Part shown: piece by piece, positions 49,678 through 63,709 of the stretch
Position numbering within the stretch: the stretch's first letter is position 1
Layout of the letters: every line of letters begins with the position of its first letter
Origin: an uncultured Eubacteriales bacterium
Lineage (GTDB): Bacteria > Bacillota > Clostridia > Oscillospirales > Oscillospiraceae
Assembly (NCBI GenBank): GCA_900319635.1
Contig: ONPF01000003.1
Span: 156,157 to 220,156, forward strand
DNA length: 64,000 nucleotides
Direction: 5' to 3'
Notes under the pieces: generated by a model
Told to the model about the DNA's origin: nothing
The model's input: only the letters and a program-made list of their open reading frames with translations
The model's database searches: none
Position numbers and translations under genes: made by a program

Positions 49678-49689
49678 CTTCCAGGTTCA
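49658..49689 (-). other. In-frame TGA in the symporter gene with an adjacent hairpin
   Basis: Reading leftward the codons are NNGY-TGA-TWKMYLSFW with the frame unchanged on both sides. The nine bases after TGA (49686-49678) pair with 49666-49658 (two G-U pairs), giving a stem with an 11-base loop. A stem directly after TGA recalls a bacterial SECIS, but the loop starts only about nine bases after the TGA, closer than known examples, and no selenoprotein symporter is known to me. A one-base nonsense change (for example TGG to TGA) or a sequencing error is the simplest explanation. Confidence 0.7.
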
Positions 49690-50421
49690 GTAGCCGTTGT
49701 TCAGACCGTCGGGTTTGGTGACATAGCGCAGCAGATCAGAGCCGGTGCGCTCCAGCTCCGCAAAGAAGCCGGTAAGACCGGGCTGGCCGGAGTTCTTGAT
49801 CATGATGATAACGGTGACCCACATGATGACGGAGAAGAGGATGCCCTGCATGGTATCCACCCAAGCCTGGGACTTGAAGCCGCCGAAGTAAACGTAGATG
49901 CCCACGACAGTGGCGGCATAGATGCAGCCGGCCCACATGGGGATCACGCCCTGGGTCAGCGCGTCCAGCGCCACGCCGCAGCCGGCGATCTGCGCCATCA
50001 GGGTGGGGAAGCAGAAGATCAGCTCGCCGGTGGCATGTACGGGACGGATCGCCTTGCCGCCGTAGTAACCCTCCAGCATGTCAGAGGGGGTAATGAGCTG
50101 GTGATCCTTGCCGAGACGCCAAACCTTGGGACCCCAGTTGCCCATCAGGAAGACGATCATCAGCTGCCAGGCTGCGCCTGCGATCCAGCCGATACCGTTT
50201 TTGTAGAAGGAGCCGGGGGCGCCCATATACAGCCAGGTGGAGAACCAGGTTGCGGCGGTGGTGAAGAACAGGATAAAGAAGCCGGTACCGCCTCCGATGA
50301 AGAAGCCGCGGGAGGAGGAGACGACCTTCTTGTCGTAGCCGATGCCAAGGCCGACGTAGAGCTCGAAGGCCGTGAACAGGGCGAGGACGACAAACACAAC
50401 AATGCCGTAAGTAGAAGTCAT
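49687..50421 (-). CDS. Na+/solute symporter (SSS family), N-terminal half, ends at in-frame TGA
   Basis: 244 residues beginning MTSTYGIVVFVVLALFTAFE, with GGGAGGA before the ATG. Typical SSS elements follow: SRGFFIGGGTGFF, TTAATWFSTWLYMGAPGSFYKNG (family motif around helix 1-2), PSDMLEGYYGG, and YVYFGGFKSQAWVDTMQG. The carrier family imports organic acids, amino acids or pantothenate with Na+. Preceded by a small membrane gene as in YhdT/PanF pairs, and behind a sigma-54 promoter; it is the likely uptake system for the substrate of the island. Confidence 0.85.
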   Translation of the reverse strand: MTSTYGIVVFVVLALFTAFELYVGLGIGYDKKVVSSSRGFFIGGGTGFFILFFTTAATWFSTWLYMGAPGSFYKNGIGWIAGAAWQLMIVFLMGNWGPKVWRLGKDHQLITPSDMLEGYYGGKAIRPVHATGELIFCFPTLMAQIAGCGVALDALTQGVIPMWAGCIYAATVVGIYVYFGGFKSQAWVDTMQGILFSVIMWVTVIIMIKNSGQPGLTGFFAELERTGSDLLRYVTKPDGLNNGY

Positions 50422-50436: not shown

Positions 50437-50670
50437 TTACTTTTTCTGAAGCTCTTCATTTTCTTCATAATCATAAGTGTCCCAGATGGAATCACTCTTG
50501 GAGAAAATGTAGATCATTACGGAACATCCGGTCATGACCAGGAACACATACCAGACAGTGAACGGAATAAAGCCGATGTGCGGTTCAAGCTGGTTGAGTG
50601 CCGGGATGAAATAGGGCAGCATACAGAGAACCCAATACACCGCGAACAGCCATTGAACAATTTTTTTCAA
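50437..50670 (-). CDS. Small membrane subunit accompanying the symporter (YhdT/DUF3311-like)
   Basis: 77 residues from a TTG at 50670 with AGGAG about ten bases upstream. Two membrane helices (WLFAVYWVLCMLPYFIPAL and VWYVFLVMTGCSVMIYIF) around IGFIPFT, then an acidic cytoplasmic tail. Small two-helix proteins of this kind precede SSS carriers such as PanF. It lies 15 bases before the symporter gene and is the first gene after the leftward -24/-12 promoter. Confidence 0.72.
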   Translation of the reverse strand: MKKIVQWLFAVYWVLCMLPYFIPALNQLEPHIGFIPFTVWYVFLVMTGCSVMIYIFSKSDSIWDTYDYEENEELQKK

Positions 50671-50744
50671 AGCCTTTTCACTCCTATCTTTTAGTTTTTA
50701 TACGGAATACTATATCCTCCCTATATAGCTCTGCCCCTCGTACA

Positions 50745-50760
50745 AGCAAGTTTTATGCCA
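50745..50760 (-). promoter_or_regulatory. Sigma-54 promoter for the symporter operon
   Basis: On the minus strand TTGGCATA-AAAC-TTGCT, with GG (50759-50758) and GC (50747-50746) spaced exactly 12 bases, as required for a -24/-12 element. The symporter-subunit start lies about 75 bases downstream. Divergent from the promoter at 50817-50833. Confidence 0.8.
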
Positions 50761-50816
50761 AGTTCTGCGGATTTGGAGCTTCTTTTCGCTTTTTGGAAAA
50801 GAACGGAAACAGAAAA

Positions 50817-50833
50817 CTGGCGCGGAATTTGCT
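50817..50833 (+). promoter_or_regulatory. Sigma-54 promoter for the hydro-lyase genes
   Basis: CTGGCGCG-GAAT-TTGCT with GG and GC 12 bases apart (50819 and 50831). The large-subunit start is about 55 bases downstream, behind GAGGAGG. Confidence 0.82.
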
Positions 50834-50887
50834 TGTATGGCGGGCGGAAGGCTTTGATCCCATCTTCATGCAGAGGAGGAAACGTCA

Positions 50888-52147
50888 ATGTCAATGACGA
50901 TCAGCGAAAAGCTCCTGGCCAGAGCGGCAGGGAAGAAGGAGGTCCACGCAGGCGAGATCATCCAGGCCCGGGTGGACAAGGCCATGATGGATGATATCCT
51001 GGGACCGCGGATCCAGATCGCGGAGCAGCTGGAAAAACTGGGCTGCAGCGTCTGGGATCCGGAACGAGTGACCGTGATCTCGGATCATTATACACCGCCC
51101 GCCAACGCGACCCAGGCGGAGATCGTGAAATTCACACGGGAGTGGTCGGCGGCAAACGGCGTGGAACACTATTATGAATTTGCCGGTCCCTGCCATCAGG
51201 TCATGGTGGAGAAGGGACGGGTGCTGCCGGGAGAGCTTGTGGTGGGCACCGATTCCCACACCTGTACTTACGGCGCCTTGGGCGCTTTTTCCACCGGTAT
51301 CGGTTCCACGGAAATGCTGGGCGTGCTGGTGACGGGAGAAATCTGGCTGAAGGTGCCTCAAAGCATCCGCGTCCGCTTCGAAGGGGCGCTGCCCCGGGGC
51401 GTGATGGCCAAGGACATGGCCCTCTGCAGTATTGGCCGAATCGGGCACAACGGAGCCACATACCGGGCGCTGGAATATTGCGGCAGCACGGTGGAGAGCC
51501 TGCCCATGGATGAAAGACTTTGTATCGCCAACATGGCGGTGGAAGCGGGTGCAAAAAACGGCGTGATTGCCTGCGATGAGGTCACCCTTGCTTACCTCAG
51601 GGAAAAAGGTATTCCCAGGGGGGAGATATTCCAGAGTGACCCGGATGCGGATTATTACGCGGACTACTGCTTCAGTGCCGGGGATCTCAAGCCCTTGGCG
51701 GCATGCCCCCATGAGGTGGACAACGTTCATCCCCTGGAGGAGCTGGAGCCCACGCCCATTCATCAGGCTTACATCGGCTCCTGCACCGGCGGCCGTTTCC
51801 ATGATCTGAAAGCGGCAGCGGAACTGCTGAAAGGGAAAAAGGTGGCAAAGGGCGTGCGGCTGCTGGTGTCCCCGGCTTCCCGAGAGGTCTGGGCGGCCTG
51901 TGACAAGGCGGGCATTCTCTCTGCGCTGTCCGACGCCGGAGCCGTCATTCTCGGCTCGAGCTGCGGCGCCTGCCTGGGCGTCCATTCCGGCGCCATCGGC
52001 GCAGGGGAGGTCTGCGTCTCTTCTACGAACCGAAACTTTATCGGACGCATGGGCAGCAAGCGCGGGCAGGTCTATCTGGCTTCCCCTATCTCGGTGGCGG
52101 CGTCGGCCGTGACCGGGCGGCTCACGGATCCCAGAGAATTCTTATAA
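50888..52147 (+). CDS. Aconitase-family hydro-lyase, large subunit (LeuC/DmdA-like)
   Basis: 419 residues, the length of the bacterial/archaeal LeuC-HacA type. The [4Fe-4S]-binding cysteines are in GSCTGGR (about 298) and SSCGACLG (about 358 and 361); GTDSHTCTYGALGAFSTGIG is the other family signature. With the small subunit 12 bases downstream it hydrates a C=C in a di- or tricarboxylate. It is not likely to serve leucine synthesis: leuA and leuB are absent and the gene sits behind a sigma-54 promoter with a PrpF/methylitaconate-isomerase-type enzyme, an arrangement recalling dimethylmaleate hydratase DmdAB of nicotinate-fermenting Clostridia. Citraconate/mesaconate or dimethylmaleate are the candidate substrates. 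Confidence 0.85.
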   Translation: MSMTISEKLLARAAGKKEVHAGEIIQARVDKAMMDDILGPRIQIAEQLEKLGCSVWDPERVTVISDHYTPPANATQAEIVKFTREWSAANGVEHYYEFAGPCHQVMVEKGRVLPGELVVGTDSHTCTYGALGAFSTGIGSTEMLGVLVTGEIWLKVPQSIRVRFEGALPRGVMAKDMALCSIGRIGHNGATYRALEYCGSTVESLPMDERLCIANMAVEAGAKNGVIACDEVTLAYLREKGIPRGEIFQSDPDADYYADYCFSAGDLKPLAACPHEVDNVHPLEELEPTPIHQAYIGSCTGGRFHDLKAAAELLKGKKVAKGVRLLVSPASREVWAACDKAGILSALSDAGAVILGSSCGACLGVHSGAIGAGEVCVSSTNRNFIGRMGSKRGQVYLASPISVAASAVTGRLTDPREFL

Positions 52148-52159
52148 GGAGGAACAGCC

Positions 52160-52654
52160 ATGTCTTTGATCGAAGGAAGAGCCCTGAAATACGGGGATAA
52201 TATCAATACCGACATTATCTCACCCCCGGCCTATATGGAGCTGCCCATTGAGCAGGCGGCGAAGATGGCCATGAGTCCTGTGGACGAGACCTTTGCCTCC
52301 ACGGTACGTCCGGGAGATATCTTCGTGGCGGAGAATAACCTGGGTTCGGGCTCCAGCCGGGAGACCGCGCCGCTTACACTGAAAGCGCTTGGCATCCGCA
52401 CCATCATTGCCCGCTCCTACGCCAGGATCTTTTACCGCAACTGCATCAATCTGGGGATCCTGGCGGTGGAGTGCCCGGAGACGAATCGCATCTCCCGCTT
52501 TGATCAGCTTTCTCTGGACACGGAGGCGGGACTGCTCCGGAATCTGAGCACCGGGGAGACCTACCGCTGCGACAAGATCCCGCCCCACATTCTGGAGCTT
52601 GTGAGCTGCGGCGGCCTGGTGGAATCTCTTAAGAAAAAACTGGGGAAAGGCTGA
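52160..52654 (+). CDS. Aconitase-family hydro-lyase, small subunit (LeuD/DmdB-like)
   Basis: 164 residues with the swivel-domain signatures GDNINTDIISPPAYM, NLGSGSSRETAPL (the substrate-recognition loop follows) and IIARSYARIFYRNCINLG. GGAGG precedes the ATG. The specificity loop of LeuD-type proteins (between beta strands near residue 30) reads SPPAYMELPIEQAAK here. Forms the active hetero-oligomer with the large subunit. Confidence 0.87.
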   Translation: MSLIEGRALKYGDNINTDIISPPAYMELPIEQAAKMAMSPVDETFASTVRPGDIFVAENNLGSGSSRETAPLTLKALGIRTIIARSYARIFYRNCINLGILAVECPETNRISRFDQLSLDTEAGLLRNLSTGETYRCDKIPPHILELVSCGGLVESLKKKLGKG

Positions 52655-52750
52655 AAGCGGAACTGTTTCATGCTGAAATACAAGCGAAACACATAGCGCT
52701 GCCCTCCCTGCGTATACTTTAGCCGATTTGACAAATCGCATCAAGTGATA

Positions 52751-52794
52751 AGAAACACCACCTGCTTCATCGCATTGAACCAGGCGGTGTTTCT
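52751..52794. terminator. Bidirectional terminator between convergent genes
   Basis: Arms AGAAACACCACCTG (52751-52764) and CAGGCGGTGTTTCT (52781-52794) with one mismatch. It separates the rightward hydro-lyase unit from the leftward lyase/CoA-transferase operon. Confidence 0.75.
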
Positions 52795-52813
52795 GTTATG
52801 GACGTGAAACGGT

Positions 52814-53719
52814 TTAAAACTGGCAGGGCGTTTCCTTTTCCACGCAGATGTGGTGGCCGCTGTAGTTGCCGGGAATGGCCTCCTTCTGGGCCTTGGCGGC
52901 AGCCAGCAGGGGAGCGAAGCGGATACCGGTATCATAGCCCATCTCGTTGAGCATCCAGACTGTATCCTCGGTGGACAGGTTCCCGGAGGCGCCGGGGGCG
53001 AAGGGGCAGCCGCCCAAACCGCCCAGAGCAGTCTGCACACCGTCCACGCCCAGCTCCAGGGCGGTCAGGGTATTCACCATGCCCAGACCCCGGGTGTCGT
53101 GAAAATGAACCTGCACCGCAAGCTCCGGATAGGCCTCCTTCACGGCACAGAGCACCCGGCGCACCTGGGCGGGATCCGCGATGCCGATGGTGTCGCAGAG
53201 CGTTACGGAGCGCATTCCCGCCTCCCAGTAGGGACGCAGAAAAGCCGCCGGCTCCCGGGGATCCGTGTATTTTCCCTCAAAGGGGCAGCCGAAGGTAGTG
53301 GCAAGATCCACGTCCAGCTGCAGGTCGGGATAGCTTTCCCGGATCTCCCTGTATGCGGACAGAGACTGTTCGTGGGTGCGGTTGATGTTTGCCCTGTTGT
53401 GGCTGGTGCTGAGGGACACTACATAGCACAGCTTCCGCAGCCCCAGCGCATAGGCGTTGGCCGCCCCGCGGAGGTTGGGTACAAGGGCAAAGTAATCCCG
53501 ATCCGGATACTTTTTCAGGGCATATTCCGCGACCGCGGCGGCGTCTGCCATCTGAGGAATGGCCTTGGGGCTGACGAAGGAGGTGATCTCCATGTGCTGC
53601 ACGCCGGCCTCGGCCAGCCGGTCGATGATGGCGATCTTTTCCTCCGTCGGGATCTGCATGCAGCTCACGCTCTGGAACCCGTCCCGGGGCCCAACCTCTA
53701 CGATGGTCACGTTTTTCAT
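52814..53719 (-). CDS. HMG-CoA lyase-family enzyme (retro-Claisen acyl-CoA lyase)
   Basis: 301 residues, DRE-TIM barrel. The catalytic pair is in VGPRDGFQ (Arg12, Asp13), metal-binding His residues in VHFHDTRGLG, and the flexible-loop cysteine in GGLGGCPFAPGASGN (about 237). All key residues of HMG-CoA lyase are present. True HMG-CoA cleavage is improbable here, because there is no leucine-degradation gene; next to a class III CoA-transferase and a hydro-lyase the more natural substrate is a citramalyl-CoA-like thioester, giving pyruvate plus an acyl-CoA. GGAGGA precedes the start, 12 bases after the transferase stop. Confidence 0.82.
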   Translation of the reverse strand: MKNVTIVEVGPRDGFQSVSCMQIPTEEKIAIIDRLAEAGVQHMEITSFVSPKAIPQMADAAAVAEYALKKYPDRDYFALVPNLRGAANAYALGLRKLCYVVSLSTSHNRANINRTHEQSLSAYREIRESYPDLQLDVDLATTFGCPFEGKYTDPREPAAFLRPYWEAGMRSVTLCDTIGIADPAQVRRVLCAVKEAYPELAVQVHFHDTRGLGMVNTLTALELGVDGVQTALGGLGGCPFAPGASGNLSTEDTVWMLNEMGYDTGIRFAPLLAAAKAQKEAIPGNYSGHHICVEKETPCQF

Positions 53720-53731
53720 GTCTTTTCCTCC

Positions 53732-54925
53732 TTAAATGGCGCCGCAGGCCTTCAGCTCCTGCAGTTCCTCTGCAGTCCGGCCCAGCCATTCTCCGTAGAT
53801 TTTTGCATTGTCCTCGCCAAGGCCGGGGGCGGCCTTCCGGGGGCAGGACTTGGTGCGCGTCAGCTTCTGGGCGGTGGCGGTGACGGCCAGCTTCCCGATG
53901 CCGGGCTGGTCGATCTCCGGGAACATGCCCCGCGCGCCGGCGATCTGCGGATCCTTTACCAGCCGGTCGATGGTGTTCACGGGGCTTGCCGGGCAGCCCG
54001 CGTCATTGAGCAGCCGATCCACCTCTTCGATAGTGTGCTGGCTCGTCCAGGCGGAGACAAGCTCCCGTACCTGTTCGTGGTTTTCCACACGATCCTTGAC
54101 CTCCGCAAAGCGGGGATCGGTTTTCAGCTCGGGCTGGCCCATCACATCGCAGAGAATTCCAAAGAGCTTGTTGTTGCCGGCCGCCACGATCACATCGCCG
54201 TCCAGCGCGGGGAAGGAGTCGTAAGGATAGGTGGACTCATAGCGGTTGCCGATCCGCTGGGGGATGCGGCCCGTGGCCTGATAGATCATGGTGATGTTCT
54301 CCATGGCGGAGGCCACGGAGTCAACCAGGGCCACGTCCACCTTCTCGCCGAGTCCGGTGCGCTGCTTGTTGACCAGCGCGGCCAGAACGCCTACCGCCAG
54401 GTTCAGACCGCCCAGCACATCTCCGAGGGGGGTGCCGGAGCGGGTGGCGGGCCCACCGGGCCAGCCGGTGGTGCTCATGAGGCCGCCCATGGCCTGGCCC
54501 ACGATGTCATAACCCGCCCGGCGGCTCAGAGGACCTGTGTGACCAAAGCCGGACACCGCGCCGTAGATGATGCCGGGGTTGACCTCCCGGAGCACCTCAT
54601 AGCCCAGGCCCAGCTTCTCCATGGTGCCGGGGCGGTAGTTCTCGATGACCACATCCGCCTTCTTTACCATGTCCAGGAACAGTTCCTTGGCCTTGGGATC
54701 CTTCAAATTCAGTCTGACGCCCAGCTTGCTCCGGTTGAAGTTTGCAAAGTACACGCTGTTGTCGTTGATAAAGGGACCCATTTTCCGGGTGTCGTCGCCG
54801 CCTTTGGGGTTTTCCACCTTGATGACGGTGGCTCCCATATCCGCCAGAATCATCCCACAGTAGGGGCATGCCAGAACTCTGCCCAGATCCAGGACGATCA
54901 CGCCCTCCAGCAATCCTTTTTCCAT
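53732..54925 (-). CDS. Class III CoA-transferase (CaiB/BaiF family)
   Basis: 397 residues. Family motifs: VIVLDLGRVLACPYCGMILAD near the N-terminus, VIENYRPGTMEKLGLGYE, and the catalytic aspartate in TPLGDVLGG at about residue 169, the same position as in formyl-CoA transferase. It moves CoA between carboxylic acids through an aspartyl anhydride. Together with the adjacent lyase it would activate the hydroxylated dicarboxylate and recycle CoA from the acyl-CoA product. Confidence 0.87.
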   Translation of the reverse strand: MEKGLLEGVIVLDLGRVLACPYCGMILADMGATVIKVENPKGGDDTRKMGPFINDNSVYFANFNRSKLGVRLNLKDPKAKELFLDMVKKADVVIENYRPGTMEKLGLGYEVLREVNPGIIYGAVSGFGHTGPLSRRAGYDIVGQAMGGLMSTTGWPGGPATRSGTPLGDVLGGLNLAVGVLAALVNKQRTGLGEKVDVALVDSVASAMENITMIYQATGRIPQRIGNRYESTYPYDSFPALDGDVIVAAGNNKLFGILCDVMGQPELKTDPRFAEVKDRVENHEQVRELVSAWTSQHTIEEVDRLLNDAGCPASPVNTIDRLVKDPQIAGARGMFPEIDQPGIGKLAVTATAQKLTRTKSCPRKAAPGLGEDNAKIYGEWLGRTAEELQELKACGAI

Positions 54926-54946
54926 GTTTCTCTCCTCTTTTTCAAA

Positions 54947-55960
54947 TCATTTTGCGGCATTCTTCAATGCCTGGGACAGCTGCACCGCCACCGCTACCGT
55001 GGCGCCCACCATGGGATTGTTGCCCATGCCGATAAAGCCCATCATCTCCACGTGGGCCGGAACGCTGGAGGAACCGGCAAAGGTGGCGTCAGCGTACATG
55101 CGGCTCATCATGTCGGTATAGCCATAGCTGGCAGGACCGGCGGAGATGTCATCCACGTTCAGCGTGCGGCCGATTCCGCCGCCGGAGGCGCAGGCAAAAT
55201 AGCGTCGATTGTGGTCGTTGCAGTATTTCTTGTAGGCGCCGGAGACGGGGTGCTGGAATTTGATCATGTTGGTGGCGTTGCCGGTGATAGACACGTCTAC
55301 CTGCTCGTGGATCATGATGGCCACGCCTTCCCGCATCTCGTTTGCGCCGTAGCAGCGGATCTCTCCCCGTGGGCCGGCAGAATAGCGGCGTTCCTCCAGA
55401 ACGTCCATCCGATCTGCGGCAAAATCAAAACGAGTCTTCACATAGGTAAAGCCGTTGATGCGGGCAATAATGTCTGCCGCGTCCTTGCCAAGGCCGTTCA
55501 GAACCACCCGCATGGGGGTCTTGCGCACCCGGTTGGCATTAAGCGCGATGCCGACGGCACCCTCGGCGGCGGCAAAGCTCTCGTGTCCGGCCAGAAAACA
55601 GAAGCAGCGGGTGTCCTCGTGGAGGACGCGAGCCGCCAGCGCTCCGTGACCCAGACCGATCTGCCGCTGCTGGGCTACGCTGCCGTCCAGACAAAAGGAT
55701 TGAAGGGCCTCGCCCAGGGTGTTCGCGATGATGCTGGGGTCGCTGTCGCCACGGCGGATGGCCGCCGCTGCGCCTACGATATAGGCCCAGGGGGCGTCCT
55801 CAAAGCAGATGGGCTGGATGCCCTTGACAGTGGCGTAAACGTCCAGGCCGGCGTCACGGCAGAGCTGTTCCGCCTCCTCCAGAGAGGCGATTCCGTTGGC
55901 CTGCAGGAAGCTAAGGATCTTGCCGATCTTCAGATCGTAGTTTTCAAATTGGATCTTCAT
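54947..55960 (-). CDS. GGGtGRT family protein (conserved, function unknown)
   Basis: 337 residues. It carries the eponymous motif as SGGGIGRTLNVDDISAGPASY in two parts around residues 258-275, and the conserved KFQHPVSGAYKKYCNDHNRR before it. The family is common in anaerobic Firmicutes and is almost always next to a NifU-N-like protein, as here; its activity is not established. The start has GAGGAGGA. It is co-oriented with the lyase and CoA-transferase behind one sigma-54 promoter, so its expression is tied to this catabolism. Confidence 0.82.
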   Translation of the reverse strand: MKIQFENYDLKIGKILSFLQANGIASLEEAEQLCRDAGLDVYATVKGIQPICFEDAPWAYIVGAAAAIRRGDSDPSIIANTLGEALQSFCLDGSVAQQRQIGLGHGALAARVLHEDTRCFCFLAGHESFAAAEGAVGIALNANRVRKTPMRVVLNGLGKDAADIIARINGFTYVKTRFDFAADRMDVLEERRYSAGPRGEIRCYGANEMREGVAIMIHEQVDVSITGNATNMIKFQHPVSGAYKKYCNDHNRRYFACASGGGIGRTLNVDDISAGPASYGYTDMMSRMYADATFAGSSSVPAHVEMMGFIGMGNNPMVGATVAVAVQLSQALKNAAK

Positions 55961-55975
55961 GCTGCGTCCTCCTCC

Positions 55976-56668
55976 TCATTCTCTGCGGGGGTCGATGAGC
56001 CTGACCGCCTCCTGGTACCGCCCATAGGTGCCGCTGGCCTTGTCCAGAGCCTCCTGGGCGCTCATACCGTCGGCGATATACCGCATCATTTTACCCAGGT
56101 GCACGAAGCTGTAGCCAATGATGCGGTCTTCCTCGTCCAGGGCCAGCTTCTGTACATATCCCTCGGTGAGGGAGAGGTAACGGGGGCCTTTGTCCACGGA
56201 GCCGTAGGCTGTGCCCACCTGGCTGCAGGTACCAGCGCCCAGGTCTTCAATGCCGGAGCCCACGGCGAGACCGCCCTTTGTAAAGGCGGATTGGGAGCGG
56301 CCGTAGCACAGATTCAGGAAGATCTCCCGCATGGCAACATTGATGGCGTCACAGACAAGGTCGGTGTTGATGGCCTCCAGAATGGTCTTGCCCGGAAGGA
56401 TCTCGCTGGCCATGGAGGCAGAATGAGTCATGCCGGAGCAGCCCACGGTCTCAACCAGTGCTTCCTGGATGATCCCGTTTTTTACATTCAGGGTCAGCTT
56501 GCAGCCGCCCTGCTTCATGGCACAGGTGGCTACGCCGTGGCTGAAGCCGGAAACCTGGGTGATTTCCTTGACTTCGTCGTATGTGCCCTCCTGGGGAATG
56601 GGCGACATTCCGTTGGGGCAACAGGCGCGCACGGGGTACATGTCCTCCAAAGAACGCGTTTTCTCCAT
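55976..56668 (-). CDS. Fe-S cluster assembly scaffold-like protein (NifU-N/IscU-like), partner of GGGtGRT
   Basis: 230 residues. Conserved cysteines appear in CAMKQGGCKLTLNVKNGI, ETVGCSGMTHSASMASEIL and NLCYGRSQSAF, a distribution like the NifU N-terminal fold but in a longer protein. A C-terminal segment (YVQKLALDEEDRIIGYSFVHLG) is specific to the variant found beside GGGtGRT genes. First gene behind the -24/-12 promoter at 56758-56744. It might assemble or repair the labile [4Fe-4S] cluster of the hydro-lyase; that is inference. Confidence 0.78.
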   Translation of the reverse strand: MEKTRSLEDMYPVRACCPNGMSPIPQEGTYDEVKEITQVSGFSHGVATCAMKQGGCKLTLNVKNGIIQEALVETVGCSGMTHSASMASEILPGKTILEAINTDLVCDAINVAMREIFLNLCYGRSQSAFTKGGLAVGSGIEDLGAGTCSQVGTAYGSVDKGPRYLSLTEGYVQKLALDEEDRIIGYSFVHLGKMMRYIADGMSAQEALDKASGTYGRYQEAVRLIDPRRE

Positions 56669-56743
56669 ACTATTTCTCCTTTAACGAATATGGTGGGCGG
56701 GTGCCGGTGGGACTGCGGCCGCGCTTCTGTTCTAATAAGGTAA

Positions 56744-56758
56744 GCAAAAAAGATGCCA
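56744..56758 (-). promoter_or_regulatory. Sigma-54 promoter for the scaffold/GGGtGRT/CoA-transferase/lyase operon
   Basis: Minus strand TGGCATC-TTTT-TTGC with correct 12-base GG-GC spacing. The first coding start is about 75 bases downstream. Confidence 0.82.
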
Positions 56759-56793
56759 AGTTAAGGGAAATATTCTTTCTTTCCCTTCTCAAC

Positions 56794-56810
56794 TGGCATC
56801 TTTTTTGCTT
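56794..56810 (+). promoter_or_regulatory. Sigma-54 promoter for the metallo-hydrolase gene
   Basis: TGGCATC-TTTT-TTGCTT with GG at 56795 and GC at 56807. The start codon is about 47 bases beyond the -12 element. Confidence 0.82.
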
Positions 56811-56856
56811 AAATAGAGATTGAAAACCGGCATACTATCAAATAGGAGGTACAGCG

Positions 56857-57627
56857 ATGAAAACCTATACCATCACGCCTGTCTGCGCCGGGGTGTTCCA
56901 GGGCGCGGAAAAATCGAATTTCGCCTATCAGAAGGATCCCGGGGAAAAGCTGAAAGCGCCTATCCTCATGTACCTGGTGCAGGGGAACGGCCTGTGCATG
57001 CTGGTTGACACCGGATGCAGCGACGGTGAATGGGCGGCCCGTTATCACCATCCCCTGGTGCAGACGGAGGAGATGAAGCCGGTGAATGCTCTGCGCAAGC
57101 TCGGAGTAGAACCGGAGGATGTGCAGATCATTGTCAACACCCATCTCCATTGGGATCACTGCTTCCATAACGACAAATTCCCAAATGCAAAGATCTATGT
57201 ACAGAAACGGGAGATCCAGTTTGCTGTGTGTCCGATCCCGACCCAGTATGTCTATTATGAATCCCCTCAGATCCACCTGACGCCCTCTTGGGTTCGGGCC
57301 ATGGATCGGATGGAGATCATCGACGGGGATCTGCAGCTCTGCGAGGGCATCGACATCCTGCTCTGCCCCGGCCATACCCCCGGCTTCCAGTGTGTCCTGG
57401 TCAACACGACAGACGGGCCTTTCCTCATCACCAGCGACAGCACCGGTGTGAAGGAAGCCTGGCAGGATCGGCAGACCGCCGGCTTGCCCACTCCTTCCGG
57501 GATCCATGTGAACCTGGAGGAGTATTACGAAACCATCCGGCGCATCTATCCTTTGGCGGATCAGGAGCATATCCTGCCCGGCCATGATCCCGCGGTACTG
57601 GAGCACAGTGTATATCCCTATAAGTAA
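56857..57627 (+). CDS. Metallo-beta-lactamase-fold hydrolase, N-acyl-homoserine-lactonase-like
   Basis: 256 residues. The dinuclear zinc motif is NTHLHWDHC (HxHxDH, about residues 94-101), with further ligands in LCPGHTPGF, SDS and LPGHDP. The N-terminal MYLVQGNGLCMLVDTGCSDG and the spacing match AHL-lactonase-like proteins, a family that includes many lactonases and esterases unrelated to quorum sensing. In this setting it may open a lactone or thioester intermediate. AGGAGGT sits before the ATG. Monocistronic, between a sigma-54 promoter and a terminator. Confidence 0.8.
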   Translation: MKTYTITPVCAGVFQGAEKSNFAYQKDPGEKLKAPILMYLVQGNGLCMLVDTGCSDGEWAARYHHPLVQTEEMKPVNALRKLGVEPEDVQIIVNTHLHWDHCFHNDKFPNAKIYVQKREIQFAVCPIPTQYVYYESPQIHLTPSWVRAMDRMEIIDGDLQLCEGIDILLCPGHTPGFQCVLVNTTDGPFLITSDSTGVKEAWQDRQTAGLPTPSGIHVNLEEYYETIRRIYPLADQEHILPGHDPAVLEHSVYPYK

Positions 57628-57641
57628 GATGAAAAGCTCAA

Positions 57642-57678
57642 AAAAACCACCGTCCGGCCCAGCCGAACGGTGGTTTTT
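57642..57678. terminator. Bidirectional terminator
   Basis: 16-bp arms (57642-57657 and 57663-57678) with one mismatch, AAAAACCACCGT ... ACGGTGGTTTTT, between the convergent hydrolase and activator genes. Confidence 0.85.
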
Positions 57679-57691
57679 CCATTCCTGTGAT

Positions 57692-59647
57692 TTACGCTTC
57701 CTTGTCTTCCTTTCGCTCCTCCAGCCTTCGCCATAGAGTCGTGCGGCCGATCCCCAGCTGCCGTGCGGCAGCGCTGTGGTTGTTGCCGCAGCGAGCCAGC
57801 ACTTCGTCTATATACTTTGCTTCCGCCTGCTCGTGCAGCTGCCGCAGACTCAGATCCGCGGGCAGACAGAGCCGGATTTCCTCATTTGCACGGTCGGGGA
57901 AGCCATCCGTCCGCAGCAGCTCGGGGGAAAGCTCCTCCTCCTGCAGACTAAAGATCAGGGAGAGCCGGTCGCAGTAGCTTTTGAGCTCCCGAATATTCCC
58001 CGGCCAGTCGTGCAAGACCGTCCGCTGCAGCTCCTGCTGCAGATCCTCCAACCGTTCGGGGGACAGGGCTTTCTCAAAATCGACCCCCAGGAAATGACGG
58101 CACAGCAGGTTCAGATCCTCGCCGCGCTCCCGCAGGGGAGGAATGACCACCGTAAAGACGCTGAGCCGGTAATACAGATCCTGCCGGAATTCGTCCTGCT
58201 GAACCATGTGCAGGAGATCCTTGTTGGTGGCGCTGATGATGCGGCAGTTCACGGAGGTGATCTTGTTATCGCCCACCCGCATGATTTCCTTCTCCTGCAG
58301 CACGCGCAGCAGCCGGGATTGCAGGTATTTTGGCATTTCGCCGATCTCGTCCAGGAAAATGGTGCCGTTATGGGCAAGCTCAAAGAGGCCGGGTTTCCCT
58401 TCCTTCCTGGCGCCGGTAAAGGCCCCGGGAGCATAGCCGAACAGCTCGCTTTCCAGCAATTGTTCGGGGATGGCGGCGCAGTTTACGGTGACAAAGGGGC
58501 CGGAGGCAAATATGCTGGCGTTGTGGATGCTGTGAGCAAAAAGCTCCTTGCCGGTGCCGGATTCACCCTCCAGCAGCACCGGCGCCGCAGTACGGGAGTA
58601 GAGCGCCGCCAGCGTCTTGGCACGCAGCAGACCGGGGGAAGTACCCAGAATATCGTCAAAGGTATACTTGGCCACAAAGCCCTTCTGACTCAGCTGGCGC
58701 CGGATCTGCCCCTCCAGCAGCTGAATCCGGCTCACGTCCTGATAAGTGCTGACGGTGCCGATAAATTCCCGGTTCAGATAGATGGGGATGTGATTGGTAT
58801 TCACCGTGATGTCCCGTACCTGCTCCAGCTGATCGGTGTGCTTGTCAAAGCGGTCGAAGGAGCGGATGGCGGAATTGCCCACAGGGGTGTCATAGATGCT
58901 TTGCCCCACCAGACTGCGCCGACTCATGCCGAACATGCGCGCCAGCGCCGGATTGAATACGGAGATCTTGCCTTCCTCGTCAGCCACACAGATCCCTTCC
59001 GCAAGGGCGTCGAAGGCTCGGCGCAGGCGCAGGGCACGCTTTTTCTCTTTTCGGGCGTTCTGGATCACATCCACCGCCTCCTGCATGACGCGGTAGGCGC
59101 TCTCCTCGCCGATCTCGATCTCAACAGCCGGAAGATCCACCAGAGCGGCGTTTTTCACGCCCTCCGCACCGCCCACATATACGGTGCAGCCGTCGGCTTT
59201 TACTTGGGCTGCCAGCTGTTCCAGATCCCTGTGATTGTGAAACTGGTACTGCACGATCTCCCGCTGGCAGATGGCGGCAACCTGCTCCGTCTCAAAAATG
59301 GGCCGCTGGTAATTGATAAAAGCCACCTTGCCGGTCTTCTCCGGCAAAGTGCGGATCGTTGAGAGCAGGTCAAAAGGGGAGATGGGCACCAGAACCACGG
59401 GAACGGGAACGTTATCCTTGATATACTGACCGGTGCCGCCCTTGCTGATGATGATGTCCACCTTGTCTGCGATGCGGCGTGCCTCCTGCACAGCGTCGTC
59501 AAAAGAGGCGTAAATGTTGATGAGGGTGATATTCGTCCCCTTCACCAGGTTCTTCAGCATACTGGAGAGCTTGGGATAGGTGGCAATAATGGCGACAGTC
59601 ATGGGCTCGCTGACGGACAGGGTGTTTCTTGTGTTGAGAGTCTGCAT
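57692..59647 (-). CDS. Sigma-54-dependent transcriptional activator with PrpR-type sensor and PAS domain
   Basis: 651 residues from the ATG at 59647 (GGGAGGT at good spacing; the GTG at 59653 is too near). Order: PrpR_N-like sensor domain (about 15-190, with [19 protein letters not shown]), PAS domain (about 205-320), AAA+ domain with Walker A GESGTGKE (about 362), the sigma-54 contact loop GAFTGA (about 406) and Walker [10 protein letters not shown], and a Fis-type helix-turn-helix at the C-terminus ([20 protein letters not shown]). PrpR_N domains bind small organic acids such as 2-methylcitrate. It is the obvious activator of the five -24/-12 promoters around it. Confidence 0.92.
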
Positions 59648-59678
59648 GGACACTACCTCCCGAGCTGTGTTTCAATTC

Positions 59679-59707
59679 AGTATAACATGAAACAGTAATG
59701 AAGAACA
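59679..59707 (-). promoter_or_regulatory. Putative sigma-A promoter of the activator gene
   Basis: Minus strand TGTTCT (59707-59702) and TATACT (59684-59679), 17 bp apart; the -10 is good, the -35 weak. It suggests constitutive low-level activator synthesis, unlike the sigma-54 targets. Confidence 0.45.
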
Positions 59708-59736
59708 GACGCTTTCGCCCTTTCAAAAAATATAGT

Positions 59737-59752
59737 TGGCATGAATTTTGCT
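59737..59752 (+). promoter_or_regulatory. Sigma-54 promoter for the PrpF-family gene
   Basis: TTGGCATG-AATT-TTGCT with GG at 59738 and GC at 59750, exactly 12 bases apart; about 80 bases before the coding start and divergent from the activator gene. Confidence 0.82.
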
Positions 59753-59830
59753 TAAAAATATGATAGCCGCTTGCTGCGGCTGCAATCAGGAGGGGAGCGG
59801 GCCTTCCCTCGTCACAGAAAGGATGATCTC

Positions 59831-60988
59831 ATGTATACAGATATGACGCCCTATCGCGTAGTCATTCAGCGCGGCGGTACCAGCAAGGGCATATTTATCA
59901 AGGAAAACGAGCTCCCGAAGGATCCCGAGGCCCGCAACCGGGTGATACGGGGCATTTTTGGCACCCCTGACCGCCGGGAGATTGACGGACTTGGCGGCGC
60001 CGACGTGCTCACCAGCAAGCTTGCCATCATCGGCCCGCCCAGCTGCGAAGGAGCAGATGTAGACTATACCTTCGCACAGGTCAGCTTCGACACGGAGCTT
60101 ATCGACTATGGCGGCAACTGCGGCAATATTTCTGCCGGAGTAGGTCCCTTTGCCATTGACGAGGGGCTTGTGGCTGCGGTGGAGCCGGTGACCCGTGTGC
60201 GCATCCATCAGGTGAATACCGATTGCATCCTCTATGCGGACGTGCCGGTGAAGGACGGCAAGGCCGCCGCGATCGGGGACTGCCGCATTGCCGGGGTTCC
60301 CGGCACCGGCGCCCGGATCCTTCTGGACTTTCACAACACCGTGGGCTCCACCACCGGCAAGCTCCTTCCCACCGGTAACCCGGTGGATCGGGTGCAGGTG
60401 GAGAACTACGGCGAATTTGAGGTCTCTATCGTGGACGCGGGCAATGTGCTTGTATTCATCGAGGCTCGGAGCCTGGGCTTGAAGGGAACAGAGACCTGCG
60501 CTGAGATTGAGGCCGATAAGGCCCTGACAGATAAGATCGAAGCAATACGCGCGACCTGCACGGTGAAGATCGGTATGGCAGCCTCCATAAAGGAAGCGAC
60601 GGAAAAGAGCGCCTACGTGCCCTTCTTCGCGATCGTGAGCCCCAGTGCAGATTATACGGTGGCAAACGACGGCAGCGTCGTTCGGGCAGATGAGGTAGAT
60701 CTGGTGAGCCGCCTCAGCTTTATGCTGCATATGCATAAGACCTATCCCGGCACAGGGACTGTCTGTACAGGCGCCGCGGCCCGGATCCCCGGGACTCTGG
60801 TGCACCGCCTTCTCTCTCCCGAGGCCCGTGAGCGGAGCGAGCTGCGCATCGGCCATCCGGGTGGGATCATCACCGTGGAGGCCCGTGCCGAGAATCCGGA
60901 AGGGACGAAATTTGCCGCCCTGGCTTATGAACGCACCTCCCGTCGGATCCTGGACGGCATCTGCTATGTGAAAAACGATCGGCTATAA
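59831..60988 (+). CDS. PrpF/methylitaconate-isomerase family protein
   Basis: 385 residues from the ATG at 59831 (AAAGGATGA upstream; the frame could be extended to 59771 but without a site). Diaminopimelate-epimerase-like fold with the PrpF signatures VVIQRGGTSKGIF, GGADVLTSKLAII (catalytic Lys about 62) and DYGGNCGNISAGVGPFAIDE (Cys about 97). Family members move double bonds or interconvert cis/trans isomers of aconitate-like acids (2-methylaconitate, 3-methylitaconate to dimethylmaleate, oxalomesaconate). With the LeuCD-type hydro-lyase in the same regulon, an itaconate- or methylitaconate-type delta-isomerase is the best guess. Confidence 0.87.
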   Translation: MYTDMTPYRVVIQRGGTSKGIFIKENELPKDPEARNRVIRGIFGTPDRREIDGLGGADVLTSKLAIIGPPSCEGADVDYTFAQVSFDTELIDYGGNCGNISAGVGPFAIDEGLVAAVEPVTRVRIHQVNTDCILYADVPVKDGKAAAIGDCRIAGVPGTGARILLDFHNTVGSTTGKLLPTGNPVDRVQVENYGEFEVSIVDAGNVLVFIEARSLGLKGTETCAEIEADKALTDKIEAIRATCTVKIGMAASIKEATEKSAYVPFFAIVSPSADYTVANDGSVVRADEVDLVSRLSFMLHMHKTYPGTGTVCTGAAARIPGTLVHRLLSPEARERSELRIGHPGGIITVEARAENPEGTKFAALAYERTSRRILDGICYVKNDRL

Positions 60989-61072
60989 CGAGAGAAAACT
61001 GTTTTTTTGAGCTTATTTGTGTAAAATAGATTATAGAAACAGACGCGATCTTTGGGAAAGGACGGTGAGCGA

Positions 61073-62440
61073 ATGGATTTTTTGCATCTGGAACAGCAGC
61101 TCCGGCAAGAGCTGCACCTGACGCCGGAGATGCTGCAGTCGCTCTCCGTCCTGCAGATGAACGCGGAGGAACTGCAGGATTTCTTAAACCGCAGCCTGGA
61201 GGAGAACCCAGTGCTGGAGGCGGAGGATTCCGCCCGGCGGGAACGAGAGGCAGCGGAACTGCTGCAGCGTTTCCGCTGGCTGGACAGCCGGGCCGTGAGT
61301 CCCGGAGCATCTCTGGCCACGATGGATCCCGCCCAGGAGCCGGGAGCTCCGGCAAGGGAACTGGAAAGCCTGTTCTTCTTCCTGCGGGATCAATTGCAGC
61401 GGCTTCGCCTTCCCCGTCCGCTGGAAGCGCTGACGGAATATCTGGCACGGCTCCTGGACGAGAACGGATACCTGGATCCGGAGGATCTGGAGGATCTGCT
61501 GGACCGAAGGATCCCCGAGGAACTGTTGAAGCAGGCGGTGGAGACCCTGCAGAGCCTGGAACCGGCGGGTGTGGGCGCACGGAGCCTTGGAGAATGCCTG
61601 CTGCTGCAATTGCGCCGCAGGCAGCCGCCCCAGCCTCTGGCAGAGAAGATCTGCCTGGAGCATCTGAGCGCCCTTGGCGAACGTCGCTATCGCGCCATAG
61701 CGCACAGCCTCCGGGTATCTGAGGCTGAGGTGGAGCAGGCCGCCCGGCTGATCGCAGGTCTGGATCCCAAGCCCGGCCGCTCTTTTTCCGGAAGCGAGCT
61801 GAACCTGTACGTTCGACCGGACGTACTCGTGCTGCGGGAGGGGGACAGCCTGCAGGTACTGATCAACGATTATTATCTGCCCAGACTCAGCCTGAGCAAA
61901 ACCTATGCACAGCTCTATGAGAGCAGCGAGGATGAAGAGGTTCACGCCTATCTGCAGAAGAAGATCCAGCAAGCCAAATGGCTGATGGACAGTCTGGCGC
62001 GTCGGGGGAATACGCTTCGGCGCTGCGTTGAAACCATCCTGGAGCTGCAGCGTCCTTTTTTTCTCGGCACGCAGGAGGAGCTTGCACCCATGACCCTCTC
62101 TCTGCTGGCCGATCGACTGGATCTTCACGTGTCAACGGTTTCCCGTGCCCTGCGAGGGAAGGTGCTGCAGTGTTGGCGGGGCAGCTATCCCATTCAGAAG
62201 CTTTTCAGCCGATCCCCGGGGGATCAGGACATCTCAAGCCAGGCTATCCGCCGCCGGATCTGTCAGCTTGTGTCAGGCGAGGACAAGACCCGGCCCTACA
62301 GCGATGAAAAATTGCGGGAGCGCCTGTTGGCGGAAGGCATATATATCGCACGACGTACCGTGGCGCAATACCGGGTCTCCTGCGGGATCCCTGCCTCAAC
62401 GGCACGGCGAGAAAGGGACAGCGACGGGAAACGGAAATAA
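61073..62440 (+). CDS. rpoN: RNA polymerase sigma-54 factor RpoN
   Basis: 455 residues from the ATG at 61073 with GGTGAG upstream. Region I (LEQQLRQELHLTPEMLQSLSVLQM, in parts), acidic region II shortened to ARREREAAELLQRF, core-binding domain (LARLLDENGYLDPEDLE, LEPAGVGARSLGECLLLQL), and the RpoN box ARRTVAQYR (about 425) that reads the -24 element. The final residues are charged. Its position inside the island, next to its activator and target genes rather than at a housekeeping place, is unusual. Confidence 0.93.
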   Translation: MDFLHLEQQLRQELHLTPEMLQSLSVLQMNAEELQDFLNRSLEENPVLEAEDSARREREAAELLQRFRWLDSRAVSPGASLATMDPAQEPGAPARELESLFFFLRDQLQRLRLPRPLEALTEYLARLLDENGYLDPEDLEDLLDRRIPEELLKQAVETLQSLEPAGVGARSLGECLLLQLRRRQPPQPLAEKICLEHLSALGERRYRAIAHSLRVSEAEVEQAARLIAGLDPKPGRSFSGSELNLYVRPDVLVLREGDSLQVLINDYYLPRLSLSKTYAQLYESSEDEEVHAYLQKKIQQAKWLMDSLARRGNTLRRCVETILELQRPFFLGTQEELAPMTLSLLADRLDLHVSTVSRALRGKVLQCWRGSYPIQKLFSRSPGDQDISSQAIRRRICQLVSGEDKTRPYSDEKLRERLLAEGIYIARRTVAQYRVSCGIPASTARRERDSDGKRK

Positions 62441-62455
62441 AGAGGAGCAAAGAAC

Positions 62456-63709
62456 ATGAAACTGGACTTCGGCTTCGGCGCCGGTACCCAGTCCGTCCTG
62501 GTGCCGGATAGCAACCTGGTGGGCGTGCTGCAGGCTGCGCCTGTGCAGCGCATGGGAAGCGAAGAGGACGAACTGAAACGTGCGCTGCGCAACCCGGTTG
62601 GCACTCCGACCATTCGGGAGCTGTTCCGTCCCGGGGATACTGTGGCTATCATAACGAGCGACGCAACCCGGCCCATGCCTACCGCAAAGGTCATGCCCCT
62701 GCTGTTGGATGAGCTGTACGCCGCAGGGATCAGACGGGAGGACATCACGCTGGTGTTTGCGCGGGCGACCCATCGCCCCCAGACAGAGACGGAACGCCGC
62801 CGCCTGGCGGGGGAGCGGGCCTGGGCGGAGATCTGCTGTGTGGACAGCGACCCGGATGACTGCCTTTACCTGGGACGTACTGCGGCAGGTACGCCTGTGA
62901 CCATCACCCGCAAAGTGGCGGAGGCAAGGCGACGGATCTGCCTCGGCAACGTGGAGTATCACTATTTCGCCGGCTATTCCGGGGGCGCCAAGGCCATCAT
63001 GCCCGGGTGCTCCACCCTTTCCGCCATTGAGAAAAATCACGGCAGGATGCTGCTGCCGGGCGCCTGCGCCGGGGAACTGAAGGCCAATCCCGTCCGGCAG
63101 GACTTGGAGGAGGCCGCAGCGATCTGCGGGGTGGATTTCATTCTCAACCTTGTGCTGGATGAGCATAAGGAGATCCTGCGGGCTGAGGCGGGACACCTTG
63201 TGGCCGCCCATCGGCGTCTCTGTGCTTTCCTGGATCAAGTGTACCGCAGGGAGCTGAAAAAGCCTGCCGATATCGTCCTGGCCAGCCAGGGTGGGGCGCC
63301 GAAGGATCTGAACCTCTATCAGACCCAGAAGGCCTTGGACAACGCAGCCCGCGCGGTTCGGGAGGGGGGCGTCATCATTCTCATCGGCTCCTGCCGGGAG
63401 GGACTTGGCGGGGAGGTTTTTCGGGATTGGATGACCGGTGCCGACTCTCCGGAGGAGATCCTTTCCCGTTATGCCCGAGAGGGCTTTCGTCTTGGCGCAC
63501 ATAAAGCGGCGGCCATTGCCGCGGTGCTGCGCAAGGCGCAGGTTTTTCTGGTGTCTGAGCTGGAGGAGGAACTGGTGCGCTCTGTACACCTTGTTCCGCA
63601 GCCATCCGCGCAGGCCGCCCTGGACGCGGCCTTCTCCCGCCTGGGCCCGCGGGCCCGGGTGCTCGCCATGCCCAGCGCCGGCTCAACACTTCCGTGCCTG
63701 ACTCCGTGA
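62456..63709 (+). CDS. larA: LarA-type nickel-pincer racemase family protein
   Basis: 417 residues. The family's key residues are visible: THRPQT (His, about 104), NVEYHYFAGYSGGAKAIMPG (His about 168 and the cofactor-binding Lys about 179), and NHGRML. LarA racemises lactate; many homologues racemise or epimerise other 2-hydroxy acids, such as malate-like acids. The cofactor genes larB, larC and larE are not in this window. Fifteen bases after rpoN, so probably co-transcribed. It may adjust the stereochemistry of the hydroxyacid formed by the hydro-lyase; this is inference. The symbol denotes the family, not a proven lactate racemase. Confidence 0.8.
   Translation: MKLDFGFGAGTQSVLVPDSNLVGVLQAAPVQRMGSEEDELKRALRNPVGTPTIRELFRPGDTVAIITSDATRPMPTAKVMPLLLDELYAAGIRREDITLVFARATHRPQTETERRRLAGERAWAEICCVDSDPDDCLYLGRTAAGTPVTITRKVAEARRRICLGNVEYHYFAGYSGGAKAIMPGCSTLSAIEKNHGRMLLPGACAGELKANPVRQDLEEAAAICGVDFILNLVLDEHKEILRAEAGHLVAAHRRLCAFLDQVYRRELKKPADIVLASQGGAPKDLNLYQTQKALDNAARAVREGGVIILIGSCREGLGGEVFRDWMTGADSPEEILSRYAREGFRLGAHKAAAIAAVLRKAQVFLVSELEEELVRSVHLVPQPSAQAALDAAFSRLGPRARVLAMPSAGSTLPCLTP

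Follow-up and report, generated by a model that had tools for sequence, protein, structure and literature searches.

Genes and promoters of the locus

The window analysed here, a stretch of 64,000 nucleotides at the end of contig C12 (ONPF01000003.1) in the draft genome (2.16 Mb, 91.7% complete) of an uncultured Eubacteriales bacterium of the Oscillospiraceae, contains a gene cluster that may be a module for breaking down a branched C5 dicarboxylate (Table 1). Five proteins form the module: a PrpF/Mii-type isomerase, the two subunits of a LeuCD-type hydro-lyase, a class III coenzyme A (CoA)-transferase and a lyase of the 3-hydroxy-3-methylglutaryl (HMG)-CoA lyase type (HMGL). Ten proteins of the locus were searched against Pfam and NCBIfam, and the symporter pieces, the old-yellow-type enzyme and RpoN were scanned afterwards. 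These searches recovered all of the families that the original prediction had placed together, namely the five above, a symporter, LarA and a lactonase-like hydrolase. Its interval (50437–63709) encloses the genes that it named except for the symporter, which lies to the left of 50437, a position that is the stop of a small open reading frame (ORF) with a homologue (50%) at the equivalent place in genome G269. The transferase and HMGL genes are separated by 12 bp on the same strand and are directly preceded there by the NifU-like and GGGtGRT genes, neither of which the original prediction mentioned. For the prpF-type gene, the ATG at 59831 is a likelier start than 59771.

Table 1. Positions of genes and sigma-54 promoter matches in the window and of selected genes in related loci
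Feature	Position	Strand	Match or remark
Two-domain old-yellow/BaiCD-like flavoenzyme	46840–48789	-	Below every NCBIfam cut-off
Na+:solute symporter (SSF)	48910–50421	-	In-frame TGA at 49687–49689; both halves match PF00474
77-residue ORF in front of symporter	50437–50670	-	TTG start; without Pfam match
Sigma-54 match before small ORF/symporter genes	50745–50761	-	Score 21.5; 74 nt upstream
Sigma-54 match before leuC-type gene	50817–50833	+	Score 22.0 of 23.5; 54 nt upstream
LeuC-type hydro-lyase large subunit	50888–52147	+	PF00330
LeuD-type hydro-lyase small subunit	52160–52654	+	PF00694; substrate loop YMEL
HMGL-type lyase, proposed (R)-citramalyl-CoA lyase	52814–53719	-	PF00682; PRK05692, 264.9 bits (cut-off 246)
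Class III CoA-transferase, proposed citramalate CoA-transferase	53732–54925	-	PF02515, 423 bits
GGGtGRT protein	54947–55960	-	PF14057, 531 bits
NifU-like protein, first gene of transferase/lyase run	55976–56668	-	Weak PF01592 (NifU_N)
Sigma-54 match before NifU-like/GGGtGRT/CoA-transferase/HMGL run	56743–56759	-	Score 21.0; 74 nt upstream
Sigma-54 match before lactonase-like gene	56793–56809	+	Score 21.0; 47 nt upstream
Metallo-beta-lactamase-fold, lactonase-like hydrolase	56857–57627	+	PF00753
PrpR-type sigma-54 activator	57692–59653	-	PF06506, PAS, PF00158, Fis-type helix-turn-helix
Sigma-54 match before prpF-type gene	59736–59752	+	Score 22.5, best in 64 kb
PrpF/Mii-type isomerase	59771–60988	+	PF04303, 385 bits
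RpoN (sigma-54), directly 3' of prpF-type gene	61052–62440	+	Three sigma-54 Pfam domains
LarA homologue, downstream of rpoN	62456–63709	+	Over NCBIfam cut-off, nickel-dependent malate racemase LarAH6
Succinate-CoA-ligase-like alpha and beta genes	L036:7459–9972		Below equivalog cut-offs
AcnX small and large subunits in module operon	L011:2191–6968; L100:10231–11902		L011 also full aconitase

Sigma-54 (-24/-12) sites were scored with a weighted consensus of our own (maximum 23.5) that was not fitted. With both strands of the 64 kb counted, only five sites score at least 21, and each lies 47–78 nt ahead of the start of a gene or operon in the locus, in agreement with the common promoter type predicted originally; the site of the prpF-type gene lies 78 nt before the ATG, or 18 nt before the first TTG. 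As 200 first-order Markov sequences gave a mean of 1.9 such sites (maximum 7), the number of sites is modest, while their placing is not. Among 35 related loci, which are not all independent (L030 and L187 share one contig, and L100/L114 and L102/L117 one genome each), 21 have a site that scores at least 20.5 near a module or transporter gene, within a range of -40 to 200 nt from where this gene is estimated to start. The locus itself encodes a PrpR-type activator and rpoN, and we propose that it may be under sigma-54/PrpR-type control.

Recurrence in other genomes

A search with the HMGL protein gave at least 80 named loci, which were annotated with the window proteins together with stretches of further genomes. 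The predicted conservation of the neighbours was borne out: all five module proteins are encoded in one neighbourhood in 11 genomes other than that of the window, namely at L011 (Mogibacterium), L022 (Mediterraneibacter), L029 (Anaerospora hongkongensis DSM 15969), L030/L187 (Family XIII), L033 (Oscillospiraceae), L038 (Eubacteriaceae), L101 (genome G214), L186, L188 and L189, and in G264, a genome of the same genus, where they form two blocks of a single contig (some 16 kb altogether). The gene order is prpF-leuC-leuD-CoA-transferase-HMGL in L029 and L186–L189, and CoA-transferase-permease-leuC-leuD-prpF-HMGL in L101. In L036, PrpF, LeuCD and HMGL occur with a succinate-CoA-ligase-like pair that replaces the transferase, and four of the five proteins are found in G269, L046 (Synergistaceae) and L120.

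In a sample of 300 genomes of the family (E ≤ 1e-60), PrpF was found in 14, HMGL in seven and both in four, the expected number being 0.33; with the window's own genome excluded, the counts are 13, six and three against 0.26, and the genomes are not independent in either case. A Mii-like gene is present in 13 of 247 genomes of the family of L038, and the module in six of the nine for which the context was seen.

Two kinds of PrpF-LeuCD loci

The tail of nicotinate fermentation in Eubacterium barkeri runs through Mgm, Mii, DmdAB and dimethylmalate lyase, and resembles the window in that a PrpF/Mii-type isomerase is followed by a LeuCD-type hydro-lyase. L103 and L185 both encode a protein of 621–622 residues with a C-terminal B12-binding domain; L103 has in addition a molybdenum-hydroxylase-type protein, and L185 a lyase of the phosphoenolpyruvate (PEP)-mutase/isocitrate lyase (ICL) family and a MutL/GlmL protein. 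When these accessory proteins were used as queries across the PrpF loci (60% coverage), L103, L106, L107 and L185 proved to have the mutase-like, molybdenum-hydroxylase-like and PEP-mutase/ICL-type genes, all three; overall, 12 of the 15 PrpF loci that do not belong to the module group have the PEP-mutase/ICL-type lyase (missing in L111, L112 and L191, the last a stretch of only 4.4 kb). However, neither the B12 mutase nor this lyase was found in 19 module stretches from 16 genomes (full or partial modules, including L115 at the right contig end), the lyase being sought in these stretches and not in the whole genome of the window. A CoA-dependent end, as predicted originally, is thus well supported by gene context, since a transferase and an HMGL-type enzyme would take the place that the PEP-mutase/ICL-type lyase has in other PrpF-LeuCD loci. 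L105 and L190 represent a further PrpF-LeuCD type with a PEP-mutase/ICL-family lyase and MmgE/PrpD, in which LeuD has SSRP instead of SSRE; L190 additionally contains an aldehyde ferredoxin oxidoreductase.

Phylogenetic trees separate the two kinds of loci. In the PrpF tree (31 rows; L086 and L113, a duplicate and a fragment, and L183 omitted), authentic Mii (3g7k) clusters with L104 and the four loci that have a B12 mutase (98/93). A second group holds four PEP-mutase-lyase loci (100/100), and one clade (98/85) comprises all 15 CoA-type rows, the window included. The LeuC tree (26 rows, omitting the full aconitase of L011 and the aconitase-like L079) places 16 CoA-type rows in one clade (100/99), with L120 outside. 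Short loci duplicating longer ones were left out as well.

Among solved proteins, the PrpF-type protein is nearest to 3g7k, the 3-methylitaconate isomerase (414 bits; next 232), and the best relatives of the LeuC-type protein are the isopropylmalate/citramalate isomerases 4nqy and 4kp1 (390.6 bits). The LeuD-type protein is closest to another isopropylmalate/citramalate isomerase, 3vba (loop YLVY), followed by the homoaconitase 2pkp (YLRT); its own loop, YMEL, has Glu at the position of the homoaconitase Arg, a residue with a role in that enzyme. The CoA-type rows have YMEL, FMEL, YMEM or YMDA in this loop, L120 (YLTN) and L079 (aconitase-like) being the exceptions.

A C6 substrate has to be considered here. 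The CoA-dependent end would then act on the nicotinate-type substrate, with 3-methylitaconate passing through 2,3-dimethylmaleate, dimethylmalate and dimethylmalyl-CoA to pyruvate and propionyl-CoA. Mii and DmdAB are known C6 enzymes, and Mii is the solved protein nearest to the PrpF of the window; however, the tree sets the window apart from Mii, and the LeuC and LeuD of L103, L106 and L107 are only 33–36% identical to those of the window and have the loop YAMA. The window's genome gave no match to the 622-residue mutase-like protein of L103. Full-length matches to this protein occurred in three of 15 genomes, G200 (its source), G746 and G214, and five further genomes had short B12-domain matches alone. 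Of the 13 genomes that hold the module in full or in part, one has the full-length gene, and in that genome, G214, the two kinds of loci lie on separate contigs, the gene belonging to the second PrpF-LeuCD locus. We regard this C6 route as unlikely. The original prediction had left the product open between citramalyl-CoA, giving acetyl-CoA, and dimethylmalyl-CoA, giving propionyl-CoA; the former is favoured, and the latter is less likely because Mii clusters with B12-mutase loci, the window belongs to another clade and no mutase-like gene was found.

It could also be supposed that these genes are unrelated neighbours, with LeuCD serving leucine or isoleucine synthesis and the remainder something else. 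LeuC and LeuD are widespread families, and the only other aconitase-family gene in the window's genome is a full aconitase. Against this, no match to PF00180 (isopropylmalate/isocitrate dehydrogenase) and no LeuA/CimA-type protein were found in the genome (provisional absences at 91.7% completeness), in which PF00682 matches just one protein apart from the HMGL, and that one is pyruvate carboxylase B/oxaloacetate decarboxylase-like; leucine synthesis was therefore rejected as the role of LeuCD. The two subunits also score below the NCBIfam equivalog cut-offs, and the linkage is conserved and the promoter type common, so that chance neighbourhood seems scarcely credible.

The CoA-transferase and the lyase

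The class III CoA-transferase reaches no NCBIfam equivalog cut-off. The HMGL-type lyase retains RD, E, HxH, GGCP and GN in alignments with 1ydo, 6nds and 2cw6, which we take to be the catalytic residues of HMG-CoA lyase; it shares with that enzyme the family and the subfamily score, but has RDGFQSV in place of RDGLQNE (1ydo, 2cw6) or RDGLQIE (6nds) and is linked to a CoA-transferase. Of 106 HMGL rows, 38 of the 40 that lie no more than 2.5 kb from a CoA-transferase or ligase of the window type are without the acid of this motif, whereas 59 of the other 66 have it; many of the acid-bearing rows are near-alike actinobacterial or Chloroflexia sequences, so that the counts overstate independence. 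The exceptions are L074 and L079, which are linked and keep the acid, and L118, L015, L017, L101, L025, L032 and L071, which are unlinked by this rule and have lost it. In L101, however, the transferase lies farther off in the same run, in L025 an acetyl-CoA hydrolase/transferase-family gene adjoins HMGL, and L032 and L071 have less than 520 bp of flank on one side.

These data bear on the possibility that the transferase makes HMG-CoA from 3-hydroxy-3-methylglutarate and that the lyase is an ordinary HMG-CoA lyase. Such a use would fit the score of the lyase above the PRK05692 subfamily cut-off, the human-type succinate-HMG CoA-transferase (262 bits) among the closer solved relatives of the transferase, and the many other HMGL relatives that are found only with a transferase, a permease or transporter and a PrpR-like gene. 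The motif acid is mostly missing from transferase-linked lyases, however; the Mii-like isomerase would be left without an evident role, and the aconitase-type chemistry of LeuCD does not suit HMG. We consider HMG use very unlikely, and return to a citramalyl-CoA lyase as the preferred assignment.

The enzymes (R)-citramalate CoA-transferase (EC 2.8.3.20) and (R)-citramalyl-CoA lyase (EC 4.1.3.46) are of Chloroflexus origin and members of the transferase and HMGL families. In a search for the proven lyase, the transferase query matched 186 of 301 genomes of Chloroflexota, and no HMGL was found in nine fetched regions and 20 short loci. In a class-level search with the lyase, two of 20 fetched regions (L158 and L167) hold both genes near each other, at 36–41% identity, and may or may not encode the proven enzymes.

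A proposed route from itaconate

The hydration of cis-unsaturated acids by LeuCD-type enzymes yields malate-type hydroxy acids, and a 2-hydroxy-2-alkylsuccinate carrying a thioester at C4 would suit an HMGL-type lyase. If a Mii-like isomerase acts first, the shortest consistent chain would be one from itaconate through (R)-citramalyl-CoA to pyruvate and acetyl-CoA. In this scheme, the PrpF-type enzyme would isomerise itaconate to citraconate, LeuCD would hydrate citraconate to (R)-citramalate, the class III CoA-transferase would convert this to (R)-citramalyl-CoA, and the HMGL-type lyase would split the thioester into pyruvate and acetyl-CoA. We infer every substrate, stereochemistry, direction and auxiliary role. 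Mii has been reported to act on itaconate as well, according to a passage of PMC4720413. Judged from sequence and gene context, there is slightly better than an even chance that the locus is a catabolic module under sigma-54/PrpR-type control that converts itaconate, as a branched C5 dicarboxylate, into pyruvate and acetyl-CoA.

Several observations weigh against this C5 route. The HMGL of G269 lies 1.1 Mb away from its other module genes, L046 and L120 have no prpF nearby, and 14 of the 35 related loci have no sigma-54 site at the threshold used. The symporter has an in-frame TGA where G269 has Trp; it is otherwise 62% identical to the uninterrupted 494-residue gene of that genome, and the TGA may be a real stop or an error. 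The NifU-like and GGGtGRT proteins have no step in the proposed chain, the lyase scores as an HMG-CoA lyase, and no experimentally proven (R)-citramalyl-CoA lyase was among the sequences compared. Absences from the window's genome are provisional at the completeness given above. In G264 (L102:9033–17796), a MmgE/PrpD-family gene and a gene for a 195-residue protein lie between prpF and leuC. The operons of L011 and G269 add AcnX, and that of L011 a full aconitase too, neither of which a plain C5 route needs; they are a hint of a wider or other substrate. In G264, leuD is followed by genes of the dihydroorotate dehydrogenase, amidohydrolase and carbamoyltransferase families.

One such substrate would be an aconitate- or methylaconitate-like acid, isomerised and hydrated, with a citryl-CoA-like ester then cut by the HMGL-type enzyme. 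Besides the L011 operon, the aconitase of the window's genome (G000 C26:119–2071; L116) is suggestive, being 62% identical to that of L011 in a genome without a PF00180 dehydrogenase, and a gene of the tricarboxylate transporter family (TctA) lies near the L036 module. The PrpF family includes an aconitate isomerase, as passages of PMC4720413 have it. On the other hand, the PrpF of the window resembles Mii much more (414 bits) than it does 2-methylaconitate isomerase (232 bits), the LeuD loop has Glu against the Arg of homoaconitase, and among the module loci displayed a full aconitase occurs only in L011 and AcnX only in L011 and L100. A tricarboxylate route thus appears decidedly improbable, and the C5 route from itaconate remains our preferred reading.

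Accessory genes

A GGGtGRT gene lies beside the module in L011, L033, L038, L100 and L189, and the NifU-like and GGGtGRT genes together accompany it in L011, L033, L038, L189 and G269. The NifU-like protein is 61–77% identical in four relatives, with invariant cysteines. Fold predictions were weak (mean predicted local distance difference test score 60.6 for GGGtGRT and 39.7 for the NifU-like protein), and Foldseek gave no match to the predicted GGGtGRT fold at E ≤ 0.001. As a guess, the pair might supply iron-sulphur clusters to the hydro-lyase or act at some other step.

The best NCBIfam match of the lactonase-like protein, far below the cut-off, is the AiiA lactonase, and a homologue of 69% identity exists in the G269 locus; its substrate may be a lactone of the same acid family. 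In the itaconate cluster of Pseudomonas, a 2-hydroxyparaconate lactonase, PA0880, is a protein of 127 residues, according to passages of PMC9875883. The likeness of the two enzymes would be in role only, PA0880 being of another family.

LarA was left out of the pathway as a racemase because citramalate has no alpha hydrogen. A LarA homologue (35%) also adjoins transferase-lyase genes in L014. Membership of the old-yellow-type reductase in the symporter operon was likewise rejected, as a strong hairpin with a T-rich tail lies between the genes (a hairpin that was not among the output of the terminator scan) and no sigma-54 site lies upstream. With citraconate or itaconate as the acceptor, this flavoenzyme could act as an electron sink. 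Old-yellow-like genes also lie near the module in L036 and L038, and in L120 in a run with permease, LeuCD, HMGL and CoA-transferase genes.

Comparison with known systems and significance

The window differs from the nicotinate-type loci in its CoA-transferase and HMGL-type lyase, which stand in place of the PEP-mutase/ICL-type lyase, in that no B12 mutase was found, in the clades of its PrpF and LeuC, and in its LeuD loop. The known Ict-Ich-Ccl route of Pseudomonas and Yersinia uses a MaoC-type hydratase and a CitE-type lyase; neither was present among the scanned locus proteins, and the rest of the genome was not searched for them. According to passages of PMC12290011 and PMC13307414, that route begins with the addition of CoA, followed by hydration of itaconyl-CoA and cleavage of (S)-citramalyl-CoA. 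The net conversion of itaconate to pyruvate and acetyl-CoA is probably the same, and both routes have a CoA-transferase; in the route proposed here, however, the free acid would be isomerised and hydrated before CoA is added, and the (R)-form would be cleaved by an HMGL-type enzyme.

The last two reactions would be those of EC 2.8.3.20 and 4.1.3.46, a pair which, to our knowledge, has not been linked to PrpF and LeuCD. Taken alone, the pair of transferase and lyase is no novelty, both enzymes being named in passages of PMC8307300. As for the whole combination, which the original prediction had not recognised as a known route, no title or abstract describing this gene set was found in the open-licence literature, most subscription journals lying outside the search.

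Itaconate is an antimicrobial acid of immune cells, and both itaconate and citraconate are immunometabolites. If the proposed route is true, bacteria with the module could consume two host immunometabolites, and relatives in the Oscillospiraceae, Lachnospiraceae, Anaerovoracaceae, Eubacteriaceae and Sporomusaceae would have a second itaconate route with other enzymes in another order. It is conceivable, at somewhat short of an even chance, that such a free-acid-first itaconate/citraconate route, so far undescribed, is widespread among the Bacillota kin of gut anaerobes, with a distinct HMGL subfamily, sigma-54/PrpR-type control and lactonase and NifU-like/GGGtGRT helpers. The route could explain the loss of itaconate caused by bacteria without known itaconate genes. 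It would also give functions to the HMGL subfamily without the RDGLQNE acid, to LeuD with YMEL and to the GGGtGRT/NifU-like pair, and would correct annotations of these proteins as HMG-CoA lyase or leucine enzymes.

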